Assembly (NCBI GenBank): GCA_002737625.1
Contig: NSIB01000004.1
Span: 1-45,478 of the forward strand
DNA length: 45,478 bases
DNA from: Flavobacteriales bacterium
Lineage (GTDB): Bacteria > Bacteroidota > Bacteroidia > NS11-12g > UBA955
Direction of reading: 5' to 3'
Below are positions 19,527 through 45,290 of this stretch, piece by piece. Every line of letters begins with the position of its first letter. The first letter of the stretch is position 1. Both the position numbers and the translations under genes were made by a program. The notes below the pieces were generated by a model. It saw nothing but the letters and a program-made list of their open reading frames with translations, was not told the origin of the DNA and made no database searches.

Positions 19527-19554
19527 AAAAAGCCACCCTGCGGGTGGCTTTTTT
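19527..19554. terminator. Rho-independent terminator, likely bidirectional, between rpsU and the convergent recombinase gene
   Basis: Perfect stem AAAAAGCCACCC-tgc-GGGTGGCTTTTT with T tracts readable on both strands. Confidence 0.9.
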
Positions 19555-22284: not shown

Positions 22285-23700
22285 TTACATCAAGTGCTCC
22301 TCGAATATAATTCCGTGATGCTTAAGCTTTTCCAAAATTGGCGCGTACCATGATTTATCGAATGGCAAACACACACCATGGTCACCGTGTTTCTCCTCCA
22401 AAAATGTTTCCACACCCATCCCCAACGGCAATCCCACCATTTTTGCCATTGCTGTTCTATCGCCGCCTTCACCCATCACTTTCAACACCGAATACCAATG
22501 TTTTTCATTCCCCAATTTATCCATCACACCCAATTTGTGAACCATGACCACTTCATCGCGATGATTCGCCTCCAAGGCCCATCGATCAAGTAAAATCTGT
22601 TCCAAAATTTGAGCCACCGTTTTTCCCACAACCACTAAATTGAGACATCCCAATTCCAACTGCAAAAATCGCAAATGCCCCTCGATATTTGTCAAATCTA
22701 CACCCGAATCGCGAAGCGATTCAATCCACAATTCGGTACTTGAACAACCCGTGACTTTCAAAAACCACATTTGGGCATTTACCGCAGAATCAATGTTTGG
22801 ATTTCTCGCCACATTACTCATCGATTCAGACCCTAAGATCCTATCAGGATGTACATTTCCGGCAACACCTTCTTCAAACAAAATGGTTTGAGAATCCGTA
22901 AACCCTTGTACCACCAACACATCCCAAGCGGCGCAAAAATAACGTCGGCGCAGTGTCCCACGCAACAAAGTCCTCGCCTTGGTTAACCCGTATAATTTCT
23001 CATAGGTTAGACTATTCCGATTGGCATAGACATCAAAAACACCAATACCAGGAACCTCAATTTCTCTTGCATTGGCAAAAATCAAATGGCCGTCCAACTG
23101 CATCACCTCCCCTTCCTCCTTCCAAATGCTTGAACCGCCTTGACCGGCCAATACCACATTGGTAGGATTCCAAGTGAATTTATATTTCCAAGGATTTTTT
23201 TCACAACACGCCACATCAACGAGTCCGCCGCAATGACTTTCAAAGGTCACGACTTCCAATCCTAGTGATTTGGCGTGATCAAAGAGTTTGTTGGCCGACA
23301 AGTGATCAATACCGGGATCCAAACCCAATTCATTCATAAAGAGTAATCCCTTTTCTTTGGCTTGCGCATCAAGACCCAACATCCCTTCTGAAGTATAACT
23401 GGCCGTAAAAAGATGACATCCCTGCTTCAAACACAAATTAGCCACAGGCAAATGCATAGGCGGCGGCAGAACACTTACTACTACATCCAAATTCTTTAAA
23501 ATATCCGATACCACTTGTAAATCAGACAAATTTGCAATCACCAAATGTGTTTTATCGTTCACAAAAAATGATTGTTGTAATCGATGGAAATCTAAATCAT
23601 ACACATAAAGTTCTCGTCCTACGCGAGCACAATATTCACCCAAATATTCAACCAAATACCCTGCACTTCTACCCGCTCCCAAAATTCCAATCTGCTTCAT
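22285..23700 (-). CDS. Saccharopine dehydrogenase/reductase-like protein
   Basis: MKQIGILGAGRSAGYLVEYL Rossmann motif; VVVSVLPPPMHLPVANLCLKQGCHLFTASYTS, NELGLDPGIDHLSA; listed N-terminus overlaps the upstream gene, Met at 23700 preferred. Confidence 0.9.
   Translation of the reverse strand: MKQIGILGAGRSAGYLVEYLGEYCARVGRELYVYDLDFHRLQQSFFVNDKTHLVIANLSDLQVVSDILKNLDVVVSVLPPPMHLPVANLCLKQGCHLFTASYTSEGMLGLDAQAKEKGLLFMNELGLDPGIDHLSANKLFDHAKSLGLEVVTFESHCGGLVDVACCEKNPWKYKFTWNPTNVVLAGQGGSSIWKEEGEVMQLDGHLIFANAREIEVPGIGVFDVYANRNSLTYEKLYGLTKARTLLRGTLRRRYFCAAWDVLVVQGFTDSQTILFEEGVAGNVHPDRILGSESMSNVARNPNIDSAVNAQMWFLKVTGCSSTELWIESLRDSGVDLTNIEGHLRFLQLELGCLNLVVVGKTVAQILEQILLDRWALEANHRDEVVMVHKLGVMDKLGNEKHWYSVLKVMGEGGDRTAMAKMVGLPLGMGVETFLEEKHGDHGVCLPFDKSWYAPILEKLKHHGIIFEEHLM
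22706..22722. repeat. Intragenic palindrome with GAA loop
   Basis: GAATCGC-GAA-GCGATTC, perfect 7-bp stem inside CDS 22285..23700. Confidence 0.7.
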
Positions 23701-23704
23701 CGAA

Positions 23705-24511
23705 TTATAATTTTTTGGCTCTTTGTCGTTTCGCCTCATAAAGCATCAAGGAGGCTGCTACAGAAACATTTAAACTATCCACCTTGCCAAACATTGGAAC
23801 GTTAACATTAACGCCCTTATCTCGCCAAAATTCGGAGACACCCTGACTTTCCGTACCCACCAATATCGCCGTTGTCTCACAAAGGTCACTATCCCAAACA
23901 CTTGTTGAATTTTCCATAAAGGTTGTAAATAGTTTAACGCCGCTAGATTGAATTACTTCCCAAGCCTGCTGAATCGAAATTACAAACAAAGGAACCGTAA
24001 ACACTGTTCCAACGCTGTTGCGAATCACTTGGGGATGATAAGCATCGATACGCTCATCACAGATCACAACACCATCGGCAGCAGTGGCGTCGGCCGAACG
24101 AAGCAATGCACCCAAATTACCCGGCTTTTCTACAGATTCAACCAACAAATAGAGTCCGCCAGACTTTGGTTTCCATTCCAAAGGTTTTATTGGCATTTCA
24201 AAAATGGCTAAAGCATTTTGCCCACTCTCCCGAACAACAACCTTAGACCAAGCCGAGTTAAGCACTTCAATCATCCAAGTAGCATCCAACTCCATACCCA
24301 CGTTCAACAGGGTTTTTAATTCCTGCCAAGACATTTTATCGGGATTGATCGCCAATTGCTTTAGTACAAGACCCGATTTCATGGCCAGCCGAATCTCATT
24401 AATCCCTTCAACGGTAAATTTACCCGCAGCCCTGCGATTCTTGGCCTTTTCCTGCAGTGCCAAAACATCTTTTACCCAAGGATTTTGTGCGGAGGTAATT
24501 GATTTTATCAT
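23705..24511 (-). CDS. TrmH/SpoU-family RNA 2'-O-methyltransferase
   Basis: EKPGNLGALLRSADATAADGVVI, VGTESQGVSEFW, VDSLNVSVAASLMLYEAKRQR. Confidence 0.94.
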   Translation of the reverse strand: MIKSITSAQNPWVKDVLALQEKAKNRRAAGKFTVEGINEIRLAMKSGLVLKQLAINPDKMSWQELKTLLNVGMELDATWMIEVLNSAWSKVVVRESGQNALAIFEMPIKPLEWKPKSGGLYLLVESVEKPGNLGALLRSADATAADGVVICDERIDAYHPQVIRNSVGTVFTVPLFVISIQQAWEVIQSSGVKLFTTFMENSTSVWDSDLCETTAILVGTESQGVSEFWRDKGVNVNVPMFGKVDSLNVSVAASLMLYEAKRQRAKKL

Positions 24512-25128: not shown

Positions 25129-26395
25129 GATTTTTCATAAAACATCCTTTTCGTATGGTTCCCAAAACCCTACCTTTCAAAACATCCTCTTTTCTTGGCA
25201 CATTATACGCTTTACTTGGATTGCGCTCATTCATTAAACAATAGTCCCCCTCCAACGTGAACAATGTCAAATTGGCCTCTATACCTTCCCCCATCAACTC
25301 CACAGCAACGCCCATAAATTGTCGATTCCCCTGAAACAACAATGGGATCCACAATTCCGGCCTTTCGTATTGAAACGCTTTGCACATGAGCGAGAAAGTC
25401 TGCATCAAAGTACTAGCGCCCCAAGCGGCATAATCAAACTCAAGTTTCTTATTTTCAATATCTTCCGGATGATGATTGGACATCACAGCGGTGAGAGTCC
25501 CATCCAACAGCCCCAAAATCAAGGACTTTCGATCCGATTCAGCACGCAGCGGTGGCAGCACTTTTAAATTCTCATCAAAATCCGTCATCGCCTCGTCTGT
25601 ATACAACAAATTCAATACTGGCACCGCCGCAAAAATCTCAACACCTTCGGCTTTGGCTTTCCGGACAATTTCAACACTATCTGTCGAGCTAATACCCATA
25701 ACACGCAGTGGCGCCTTCAAATATTTAGCCAACTCAATATCCGCTAAAAGTTCCACCGTCTCACTCACAGATGGTATTCCTTTAAAACCCAAACTCGCAT
25801 TAACCAGACCTTCATGCACCTTACCATCAGGTGCCAACGCTTTTTGATAAGGAAAATGAATATAATTCAACCCCAAGGAATGCGCGTACTGCATCAATTT
25901 TATACGCAATCCCAAAGAAGCACTAGCGGTTATACCATCGGTGAAAGCCAACGCTCCGGACAAATGCATTTCGTACATTTCAGCCATTTCATTGCCTTCA
26001 CCGCCAACACTACTGAATCCCAGGGGGAGTATTTCTGCAGGCAAACTTTTACCCAATCCCTTCACCTGAGCAATCACAGACTCATTGTCGGGCTTTGGAT
26101 TACTGCCACACAAAGCAGCCACATGAGTAAACCCGCCTTTCTGTGCTGCATCACTATAAGATTGCAGGGTTTCCTTCCAAGGTTCACCCGGATCTGGACA
26201 AACACCAAATGGGTCCATCCACCCCAACGAAACAAAGGCCCCTTCACCATCGAGCAACTCCGAAGCCGCCAATCCAAGACCCTCACCCAATGCAGAAATC
26301 ACACCGTCCTGAATCAAAATTTCCACATTGCGGTTGTGCAACGGATGATCCGGAGAAAACAAAGTTACGTTTTGAAGCAATGTAGTATGAGTCAT
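25121..26395 (-). CDS. Dihydroorotase-like amidohydrolase homologue, apparently lacking the HxH metal motif
   Basis: Amidohydrolase layout, PDPGEPWKETLQSYSDAAQKGGFTHV, MSNHHPEDIENKKLEFDYAAWG; MDPFGVCPDPGEP where DxHxHxREPG is expected. Confidence 0.88.
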   Translation of the reverse strand: MTHTTLLQNVTLFSPDHPLHNRNVEILIQDGVISALGEGLGLAASELLDGEGAFVSLGWMDPFGVCPDPGEPWKETLQSYSDAAQKGGFTHVAALCGSNPKPDNESVIAQVKGLGKSLPAEILPLGFSSVGGEGNEMAEMYEMHLSGALAFTDGITASASLGLRIKLMQYAHSLGLNYIHFPYQKALAPDGKVHEGLVNASLGFKGIPSVSETVELLADIELAKYLKAPLRVMGISSTDSVEIVRKAKAEGVEIFAAVPVLNLLYTDEAMTDFDENLKVLPPLRAESDRKSLILGLLDGTLTAVMSNHHPEDIENKKLEFDYAAWGASTLMQTFSLMCKAFQYERPELWIPLLFQGNRQFMGVAVELMGEGIEANLTLFTLEGDYCLMNERNPSKAYNVPRKEDVLKGRVLGTIRKGCFMKNHD

Positions 26396-28497
26396 AATTT
26401 TACAGATTCAGATGTAATTATTCTATCTTTTAATAATATGATAACAACTTCTACTGCGAAGAAAAACGCAGCCCCCCATATAAACAAGCGCCAAGGCGTG
26501 TTTAATGGGGCATTGTGCATAATCGGTGTAATTCCGTTGCCTTGGGATAGCGTTAAACCATTTCCACCACCCAAAGATATCGATTTCCAATCAGCAAAAC
26601 TTCGCAAATCAGATTCTTGCTTTCCCAAATTTAACGCAATTTGCACACTGTCCTCGCCACTGCTACCAACCAACCAGAAATAGCCTGGATACTGGGGTTG
26701 AGACCCTACATACATAGAAGTATGTTGGCTAGAATTTTGTTGTAAATCTATCACGATGTTACCGGATTTGCCGCGCAGCTTCGCTGCGCGCTCATCTACT
26801 TGTACATTGCTTGGCAATGGCAACAAATTGCCGCTAAACAACTCACCATATAATGACTGTTCCACCACCGCCGATGAAGCAATAATCTGCGTAAAAATGG
26901 GTAGGAACCAAACCGAAGACTTTAAAGATTGACTTCCACTGCGCAAATCACTCAACCAAACCCAATAGCTACCAGTGCCCTGAACTCGCTGCAGCAAAAT
27001 TGGATTACCACTTTCTAATTGTAAAACGGTTTCAAAGTCCAACGACGATTCCAATTTGAAATGTCCACCCACCCAAGGCATCTCCGTCTTTTCCGAAATC
27101 GATTCACCAAACGCATTTTGAAATATTGGATGCTGAAACCCCGCTAACGCCAGCCGATCAACCTGTAAATCTCTATCCAAATTTGGCCCTTTATTCCTTG
27201 ATAAAACTCCCTTTCCAATCTGACCGCCCAACCACTCACCGCGCAAATCTCCAAAGCCCAAATTAAAATTCTTCCTACGTATTGGATCAGCAAAGAACTG
27301 TATAACACCCTTCCCCGAAGCAACAAAATCTCTCAATGAAGCCATTTCTTGAGCAGTGTAAACCGCATCGTTGATCAGAACAATTGCATGGGCGGATTGT
27401 AAAACCCCTTTATTTCCAGACAACAAATCGGCTCGTTTTAAATCCACTTTTTTTAATAATTGCTGAGATGCAAACAACGCAGTAAGCGCATCGTCAATGC
27501 CCAAAACACCCACTACAGTCTGATTTTGTTTGATGGGATGCAAATACTTTATATTGTCGTACCCAAACCCATCTTCATCCAACTGCAGCGCACTAGCCTG
27601 CGATAGTTCAATTTCTGACAGTGGGAATTCCACTTCAGCAACTCCTTGAGCCTCCAACTTCACAGACTTTACGTGCATCGTCTTGCCGTCACTGACCATA
27701 CGAAGTGATGTCTCCTTGGATGATTCAGTATAATTTCTAATCTTCGCCTTCAGCAACACATTGGCCCCAGCATCGGCATTTTGCCAAACACTCTCATACC
27801 AAACTGTATCAATTCCCACGTTGCCACCGCTTTGTGTTGGATCCAAAGGATACAAAACATATTCCCAATCCACAGCAGGTACCGATATCAATTGAGGTTT
27901 ATCTGCCATGGCCGACAATTGACCATCACCAAAGGCCATCACTTTCAGAGATGCAATCCCACCCTCATGAAGCAATTCATCCACCTGAGCAGTCCAATCA
28001 GACCATTTGCGCTGTTGCGGACAAAGAGGAATCGTATCGATAACGGATAAAGCTTGTGCGGGCGACATCCAGCCAGTGTTGGTCAATGGATCTTGGGTAA
28101 ACAACCTCACCTGCGCCTCCTGTGCCAAACCGGACAACATAGTTCTGGCTTGGGACCTAGCTTGTTCGATGATCACTCCATCCGCATTTTTGGTACCCAT
28201 AGAATAAGAGTTGTCAAACAACACAACCACATGGCTATATTCTTGATTGCGGTTGGATGAGCTACAACTCGGCATCGCAAAGGCGAAAACCAAACATGTG
28301 ATGGCCATCATACGAGCGAGCAAAACAATCCAATGCTGTACCTTCTTTTGCTGCCTTGCGTGTTGCAATCGCTGAATTAAGCGAAAAATACCGGGGAAGT
28401 AAATCGTTTGGGTTCTATGAAATTGAAAAAGGTGAATCAACAGCGGAATTGCCAGCAAAAGCAATCCCCAAAGCATATTTGGCTGTTGAAATTGCAT
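26392..28497 (-). CDS. BatA/VWA-type membrane protein
   Basis: N-terminal MLWGLLLLAIPLLIHLFQFHRTQTIYFPGIFRL (aerotolerance-regulator N-terminal domain); VVLFDNSYSMG VWA MIDAS-like motif. Confidence 0.88.
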   Translation of the reverse strand: MQFQQPNMLWGLLLLAIPLLIHLFQFHRTQTIYFPGIFRLIQRLQHARQQKKVQHWIVLLARMMAITCLVFAFAMPSCSSSNRNQEYSHVVVLFDNSYSMGTKNADGVIIEQARSQARTMLSGLAQEAQVRLFTQDPLTNTGWMSPAQALSVIDTIPLCPQQRKWSDWTAQVDELLHEGGIASLKVMAFGDGQLSAMADKPQLISVPAVDWEYVLYPLDPTQSGGNVGIDTVWYESVWQNADAGANVLLKAKIRNYTESSKETSLRMVSDGKTMHVKSVKLEAQGVAEVEFPLSEIELSQASALQLDEDGFGYDNIKYLHPIKQNQTVVGVLGIDDALTALFASQQLLKKVDLKRADLLSGNKGVLQSAHAIVLINDAVYTAQEMASLRDFVASGKGVIQFFADPIRRKNFNLGFGDLRGEWLGGQIGKGVLSRNKGPNLDRDLQVDRLALAGFQHPIFQNAFGESISEKTEMPWVGGHFKLESSLDFETVLQLESGNPILLQRVQGTGSYWVWLSDLRSGSQSLKSSVWFLPIFTQIIASSAVVEQSLYGELFSGNLLPLPSNVQVDERAAKLRGKSGNIVIDLQQNSSQHTSMYVGSQPQYPGYFWLVGSSGEDSVQIALNLGKQESDLRSFADWKSISLGGGNGLTLSQGNGITPIMHNAPLNTPWRLFIWGAAFFFAVEVVIILLKDRIITSESVKL
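26772..26790. repeat. Intragenic GC-rich palindrome with TTC/GAA loop
   Basis: CGCGCAGC-TTC-GCTGCGCG, perfect 8-bp stem inside CDS 26392..28497. Confidence 0.8.
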
Positions 28498-31172: not shown

Positions 31173-31217
31173 GTATTAACAGAGAGGGCGGCCATTGGCC
31201 GCCCTCTCTGTTAATAC
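31173..31217. terminator. Perfect 22-bp-stem palindrome between convergent ABC-exporter and rpoC genes; probable bidirectional terminator
   Basis: GTATTAACAGAGAGGGCGGCCA-T-TGGCCGCCCTCTCTGTTAATAC; followed by TATTTTTTAA on the plus strand. Confidence 0.8.
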
Positions 31218-39470: not shown

Positions 39471-39848
39471 TTACTTAATTTCAACTGTAGCACCGGCGTC
39501 TTTCAATTTAGCTGCAAAATCTTCGGCTTCTGCTTTAGAAACTTTCTCTTTTACTGCCTTAGGAGCACCGTCTACTAAGTCTTTTGCTTCTTTCAAGCCC
39601 AAGCCTGTCAAATCTTTAACGATCTTTACGATCTGTAATTTGGCAGCACCTGCGCTTACCAAGATTACATCAAATTCTGTTTGCTCAGCAGCAGCGGCTT
39701 CGCCGCCACCTGCTGCAGGCGCAGCCACAGCCACAGCTGCTGCTGCAGGCTCAATACCATGCTCATCTTTCAAAATTTGAGCAAGCTCGTTAACCTCTTT
39801 TACAGTAAGGTTTACCAACTGGTTCGCGAATTCTTTTAAATCTACCAT
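39471..39848 (-). CDS. rplL: 50S ribosomal protein bL12
   Basis: [50 protein letters not shown]. Confidence 0.99.
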
Positions 39849-44255: not shown

Positions 44256-45290
44256 ATGCAAAAACGCATCCTTATTGCTGCAACCATCTTGGTCTCTGCC
44301 CTCTTCATTGCCTTTGTGTTTTGGCGTAATATCAATAGTACTACCGCTATTTCCCACGACTTATTTGCGCTCAAATCGCCACAGAGAGTCACCAAAATCA
44401 CCTTTTCTCCGAACAATACAAAACTCCCCTTCCTTTCCATAGAAAAAATCAATGATCATTGGATTGTTCGAACAGAAACTCAATCTTTCCCTGCCGATAC
44501 ACACGCAATTCATGAATTACTCTACTGGGCAATGCCACAATTACAAGTAAAATGCCCCGTAGCCGACGCCTCAAAAGAAACCGTAACTAAAGATATCGCC
44601 CTAAACGGCACCAAAGTCATCTTTTCAAAAGACAATAAAGAAGTACATACTCTATACGTAGGATTCCCCACACCCACCCAAGACGCTACCTATATGTATT
44701 TCCCCGGCACGGAACGACCCTGCGAAATCACAGTACCCGGCTTTATTGGCTACCTCACACCCTATTTCAATACCAATATTCAACTCTGGAGGTCGATGTT
44801 TATGATCGATGCGTCCGTATCAGACATCAACTCAATAAAAGTCACTTATCCCAATCAGCCCCAAGAATCTTTTATGATCACTCAGGTCCATGACCGTATT
44901 GAATTAAAAAACCTAAACAACCAACCCATTGCCGCCAACCAAAGCTTAATCGCGGGGTATTTGGAGTTGTCCAAGACGCTCGCCCGCGAAGCGGGCGAGC
45001 CAGCCGTTATTAACAACAGCGACCTCGCAGTGAAAAAAATCACACAATCCCAACCCGTAGTAGTTTTCGAATACACCTTCACTTCTAAAGCCGCCAAAAC
45101 CATTACCATCTATCCCATGGACATTACCGCCGGCGAAACCTATAGCATGGAAGAAAAAAATGGAAAACTCAAAACCAAAGAAACCAATATTTACTGGGCC
45201 AAGGAATCGGGCGACCCTCTATTATGGGTGATACAAGATATTATATTACACAACCGTCTCAAAAAATTAAGCGATTTCACAAACCATTAA
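44256..45290 (+). CDS. DUF4340-like membrane-anchored protein
   Basis: N-terminal TM; VTKITFSPNNTKLPFLSIEKINDHWIVRTETQSFPAD resembles DUF4340 layout. Confidence 0.65.
   Translation: MQKRILIAATILVSALFIAFVFWRNINSTTAISHDLFALKSPQRVTKITFSPNNTKLPFLSIEKINDHWIVRTETQSFPADTHAIHELLYWAMPQLQVKCPVADASKETVTKDIALNGTKVIFSKDNKEVHTLYVGFPTPTQDATYMYFPGTERPCEITVPGFIGYLTPYFNTNIQLWRSMFMIDASVSDINSIKVTYPNQPQESFMITQVHDRIELKNLNNQPIAANQSLIAGYLELSKTLAREAGEPAVINNSDLAVKKITQSQPVVVFEYTFTSKAAKTITIYPMDITAGETYSMEEKNGKLKTKETNIYWAKESGDPLLWVIQDIILHNRLKKLSDFTNH
44978..45000. repeat. Intragenic GC-rich palindrome with GAA loop
   Basis: GCTCGCCCGC-GAA-GCGGGCGAGC, perfect 10-bp stem inside CDS 44256..45290. Confidence 0.85.

Follow-up and report, generated by a model that had tools for sequence, protein, structure and literature searches.

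Sequences of the type d(GCGNAGC) form extraordinarily stable DNA mini-hairpins, known as a property of oligonucleotides and as an engineering tool; in the open-access papers searched, GCGAAGC is used as such a tool and is not presented as seeding palindromes genome-wide in bacterial genes. Coding palindromes have been reported in the mitochondrial genes of Nematomorpha, as perfect inverted repeats of up to 284 bp, and a conversion of the template-switch type has been suggested for them (PMC6649704). Homogenisation of the arms and inversion of the loop or spacer are recognised signatures of template switching (PMC8604942, PMC8794818), and template-switch mutations in yeast coding genes (PMC8604942) and RNA genes (PMC8794818) include multinucleotide and nonsynonymous changes. 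REP and Rickettsia palindromic elements are also short palindromes, the latter occurring inside ORFs as well, but they form repeated or inserted families.

The palindromes described here, in a bacterial genus, resemble those of Nematomorpha in being perfect repeats in conserved, functional protein genes, more frequent than expected, with both arms coding and with gains and losses between species; they differ in being far shorter (arms of up to 20 bp in CDS) and in their strong preference for a C(GNA)G cap. They share arm homogenisation, loop inversion and multinucleotide and nonsynonymous changes with the template-switch mutations cited above, but whereas those are rare events detected by comparing lineages, the palindromes constitute a standing, genus-wide load with a single loop class. 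Unlike REP and Rickettsia palindromic elements, they are unique sequences present without insertion. The open-access literature, to which the search was confined, did not reveal any bacterial genus with such a class, or any account of the GNA cap as a seed. The dependence on a GNA cap in a bacterial genus appears to be new, the closest precedents being Nematomorpha mitochondria and template switching in yeast.

The window, a stretch of 45,478 nucleotides, is contig C34 of an assembly of 1.46 Mb (73.6% complete). The public records closest to it are MAGs that carry the labels Bacteroidetes or Flavobacteriales, and their isolate names suggest a freshwater habitat. The focal palindrome, GCTCGCCCGC-GAA-GCGGGCGAGC, was confirmed as the earlier note had described it: a perfect, GC-rich palindrome of 23 bases (GCTCGCCCGCGAAGCGGGCGAGC), with a GCGAAGC core and encoding LAREAGE. 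Its GC content reaches 90% in the arms, versus 40-46% in the window. It lies in frame in the middle of its host gene (Table 1), encoding (T)LAREAGE(P). For the peptide KTLAREAGEPA encoded with the genome's codon usage, arms of at least 10 bp have a probability of ~2e-5. The 31-mer around the palindrome, when folded as DNA, gave -14.3 kcal/mol (z -4.1), and the core, capped by C(GAA)G on the coding strand, is exactly a d(GCGNAGC) mini-hairpin sequence. A pattern search of the genome matched the site itself alone, with no second copy even when three mismatches were allowed, and the bare 7-mer GCGAAGC was not enriched (135 occurrences, versus 129 for the reversed control). The two companion sites named in the earlier note, at 26772 and 22706, are also real.

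Table 1. Palindromes in the window and the genes that contain them (positions on the window).
Feature	Position	Strand	Remarks
Focal palindrome	44978..45000	+	10-bp arms capped by C(GAA)G (coding strand); arm length 9-10 bp in 6/6 clade species
Host gene of the focal palindrome, DUF4340-domain protein, 344 aa	44256..45290	+	LAREAGE within conserved block GYLELSKTLAREAGEPA
Palindrome in BatA-domain gene	26772..26790	-	8-bp arms, identical in five clade species
BatA-domain gene, host of the 26772 palindrome	26392..28497	-	
Palindrome GAATCGC-GAA-GCGATTC	22706..22722	-	7-bp arms; in saccharopine dehydrogenase-family gene; window species only
Saccharopine dehydrogenase-family gene, host of the 22706 palindrome	22285..23739	-	
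Weak member, could be chance	39694..39706	.	5-bp arms, GCTTCGC core; inside ORF 39471-39848 (-)
Intergenic terminator-like palindrome	19527..19553	.	12-bp arms; loop C(TGC)G, reading GCA on the opposite strand; same sequence in G004
Very long perfect intergenic palindrome	31173..31217	.	22-bp arms; flanked by converging genes, downstream of rpoC

The LAREAGE block aligned without gaps in all 30 orthologues aligned, down to an identity of ~38%, with R-E and G as its core. The palindrome was present in all six species of one clade (~90% protein identity), with 10-bp arms in five of them and 9-bp arms in the sixth, and the same palindrome was found in independently assembled MAGs. In the sister clade (~65% identity), the same residues are specified by other codons (for example, CTC GCA CGC GAG GCT GGC GAA) and the palindrome is absent; it must therefore have formed through synonymous codon changes. 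Conservation of the residues without the palindrome, named in the earlier note as an outcome against its proposal, is thus seen outside the six-species clade; within it the palindrome is intact. In these six species, eight successive codons are invariant, the longest such run in the gene (permutation P ~0.04). A record labelled Chryseobacterium gleum (CAMBTR010000008.1) contains a 90%-identical orthologue from this clade and is, for this reason, probably mislabelled.

We sampled 424 kb of the window's own genome (the window and 20 further stretches), including 358 kb of CDS. In this CDS, eight hairpins with a GNA triloop on either strand and arms of at least 9 bp were found, versus 0.17 in synonymous-codon shuffles, and hairpins with non-GNA loops were at the null level. 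The GNA class was defined after this first genome and then held in genomes G014, G004, G007 and G013. In nine species of the genus (1.19 Mb of CDS), 23 GNA-triloop hairpins with arms of at least 10 bp were counted, versus 0.6 expected from synonymous-codon shuffles, and 11 versus 0 with arms of at least 12 bp; these counts were obtained on sampled stretches, using simple ORF calling and five to six codon shuffles, and they are not independent, as the species are related and some of the palindromes are orthologous. Other loops, again with arms of at least 10 bp, remained at the null level (7 versus 5.4). Outside the genus, no GNA-triloop hairpin with arms of this length was found in 0.70 Mb from ten genomes (0.2 expected). 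The enrichment proposed in the earlier note therefore applies to the GNA-capped hairpins and not to the bare GCGAAGC; the family of short ORF palindromes that it had envisaged is real in the sense that its three sites belong to this wider class, enriched over shuffled controls, but its members are neither inserted nor repeated elements.

The GNA loop was closed by a C-G pair on the GNA strand in 38 of the 45 hairpins with arms of at least 9 bp, versus 157 of 846 with arms of 4-6 bp. This closing pair is the signature of the extra-stable d(GCGNAGC) mini-hairpin, and the importance that the earlier note attached to the GCGAAGC core was borne out, as the C(GNA)G cap is common to the class, whereas the arm sequences differ from site to site. 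The density of such hairpins (arms of at least 9 bp) was 21 per Mb within CDS, compared with 178 per Mb elsewhere. The GNA loop was on the coding strand in 10 cases and on the template strand in 18; the bias between replication strands was weak (30 versus 15 on the G-rich strand). In the window's own genome, members with perfect arms of 18 and 20 bp lie within dprA, a WD40 gene and the gene for DNA polymerase III alpha. Pfam, which covers part of the ORFs of the other species, confirmed DinB, DprA, MiaE, Pol III alpha, WD40 and histidine kinase host genes.

Codon alignments of orthologues showed no gap or length change at the palindromes examined, and the outgroups were palindrome-free; the arms have thus become complementary without net insertion. 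The 18-bp palindrome of dprA is perfect in five of the six species, with paired changes in different species (GGT/CAC, GGA/CTC and GAA/CTT), some of them nonsynonymous. The Pol III alpha gene of G014 has a paired T-A to C-G change (ATT...AAA to ACT...AAG), and that of G006 has a different, 16-bp palindrome around the same core. Concerted arm changes were therefore observed in DprA and Pol III alpha; the focal site shows the final state alone. At 26772, the loop on the coding strand reads GAA in the window but TTC in four relatives (Lys versus Ser), with identical arms; these three adjacent changes equal the reverse complement, an inversion that has no counterpart at the focal site. At 22706, clustered changes that match the left arm distinguish the right arm from that of the relatives, and the stem at 31173 extends to 22 bp in the window, with a central T, versus 17 bp and a central A in G004 and G005. 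The loop remained within the GNA class despite base changes in MiaE (TTC to TGC) and in Pol III alpha (TGC versus GAA and GGA). The 22706 palindrome and that of MiaE in G004 represent gains or losses between close species. Single-sided arm changes also occur, with ten uncompensated sequence cells versus three compensatory; on the coding strand, these ten comprise six A-C pairs and no G-T pair, a comparison based on small numbers. Synonymous codons were identical throughout the clade at 72 of 86 positions in palindromes versus 384 of 786 in flanking sequence (odds ratio 5.4, P ~2e-10).

We consider it probable that the focal palindrome is a persisting product of template switching (quasipalindrome correction), and that template switching is both the origin and the main source of maintenance of such palindromes. 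Nascent or single-stranded DNA would adopt the C(GNA)G mini-hairpin, with its exceptional stability, and the polymerase would copy one arm from the other before returning to the normal template. This copying would both create and repair near-perfect palindromes, and changes tolerated by the protein would be retained. Repeated correction, possibly together with selection against disruption, would keep the arms matched. The enrichment specific to GNA loops and the C-G closing pair support template switching, as do the compensatory arm changes, the loop inversion at 26772, the clustered changes at 22706, the stem extension at 31173, the confirmed identity of the host genes and the gap-free alignments. 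Against it, the uncompensated arm changes outnumber the compensatory ones, and the high synonymous conservation within palindromes would also be produced by selection; either repeated correction or selection could be its source. For the focal palindrome itself, template switching is read from the outcome, in present-day sequences.

The main rival, which we regard as unlikely, is that selection preserves the C(GNA)G-capped DNA hairpin because it has a function, such as that of a site for a hairpin-binding nuclease, a primase or a single-strand promoter, with codon choice bent to this end. The strong synonymous conservation, the retention of the GNA class despite loop-base changes and the restriction of an Mre11/Rad50-like gene pair to the genus, among the genomes searched, are all consistent with such selection. 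The sites nevertheless lie in unrelated genes, with no common arm sequence, position or orientation, some of them have been gained or lost between close species, and compensation even alters amino acids, for which template switching is a simpler source. Selection on hairpins in mRNA, acting on translation, stability or transcription attenuation, seems very unlikely: the same hairpins would form in mRNA and the intergenic members look like terminators, but the loops are of the DNA-type GNA class on either strand, the single-sided changes include no G-T pair on the coding strand although RNA should tolerate G-U, and the focal site has no U-tract after it. An intrinsic terminator, which would be a hairpin outside CDS with a T-run after it, was rejected at the focal site, which lies in mid-gene and is followed by CAGCCGTT.

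A chance coding palindrome or an assembly artefact is still less probable. Complementary codons can indeed encode the peptide LAR-E-AGE, but the codon-usage probability given above and the genome-wide excess in several genomes argue against chance, and the recurrence of the palindrome in independent assemblies argues against an artefact. The earlier note had likened the palindromes to mobile or repeated elements of the REP or Rickettsia type, an explanation that we consider practically untenable: several palindromes do lie inside ORFs, but their arms are site-specific and the gap-free alignments contradict insertion. REP elements would require many similar, mainly extragenic copies, and the focal sequence is single-copy at up to three mismatches, with its 7-mer at background frequency; a Rickettsia palindromic element would require an insertion relative to orthologues, and LAREAGE has none.

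Template switching at hairpins has so far been known from reporter genes and sparse comparative traces. If template switching is indeed the source, the genus provides a standing, genome-wide record of the process in conserved genes, tied to one loop chemistry, in which it can be asked which hairpins seed it and which repair genes permit it. The extent of the amino-acid changes that it forces could also be addressed, as compensatory nonsynonymous substitutions can pass for positive selection; likewise, covariation in coding DNA need not indicate RNA structure.

With respect to repair genes, a gene for an Mre11/SbcD-like phosphoesterase (385 aa) adjoins that of a Rad50-like ATPase (813 aa) in G014 (L212:10398-13990). 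This pair was present in 11 of the 15 genomes of the genus, and a search of 41 further genomes from the family and order did not find it. The window's own assembly, which is incomplete, yielded no such pair, but all five close relatives have it. The one sampled lineage within the genus that lacks the pair, represented by G008 and G012, was also devoid of C(GNA)G hairpins with arms of 6 bp or longer in the 152 kb sampled. The link between the pair and the hairpins is only suggestive, because G011 has the pair but few hairpins; as phylogeny is a confounding factor, we treat this link as a lead rather than a result. That a lineage-specific hairpin-processing system, with this pair as the candidate, actively makes or keeps the C(GNA)G palindromes is unlikely. 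In no genome of the family was SbcD detected above the cut-off; absence of SbcD may permit palindromes, but its loss was rejected as the cause, since a family-wide condition does not account for restriction to the genus. Loss of the ExoVII subunit XseA was likewise rejected as a genus-specific cause: the gene is missing from most genomes of the genus, but also from many others.

Several additional features were observed. Upstream of the 22706 palindrome, the saccharopine dehydrogenase-family protein has a stretch of variable length that is weakly conserved among relatives. In the window's own genome, the gene for DNA polymerase III alpha contains two perfect palindromes in immediate succession (L086:1244-1316), with arms of 18 and 13 bp. 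The WD40 gene of G011 (L133) contains a palindrome with 19-bp arms and one mismatch, the arm sequence of which has changed relative to the six-species clade, and a second palindrome of 13 bp, with a GAA loop, lies just downstream. A predicted ORF of the same genome (L254:14469-15284) also contains a palindrome with 19-bp arms, in this case with a TCT loop that places it outside the GNA class.
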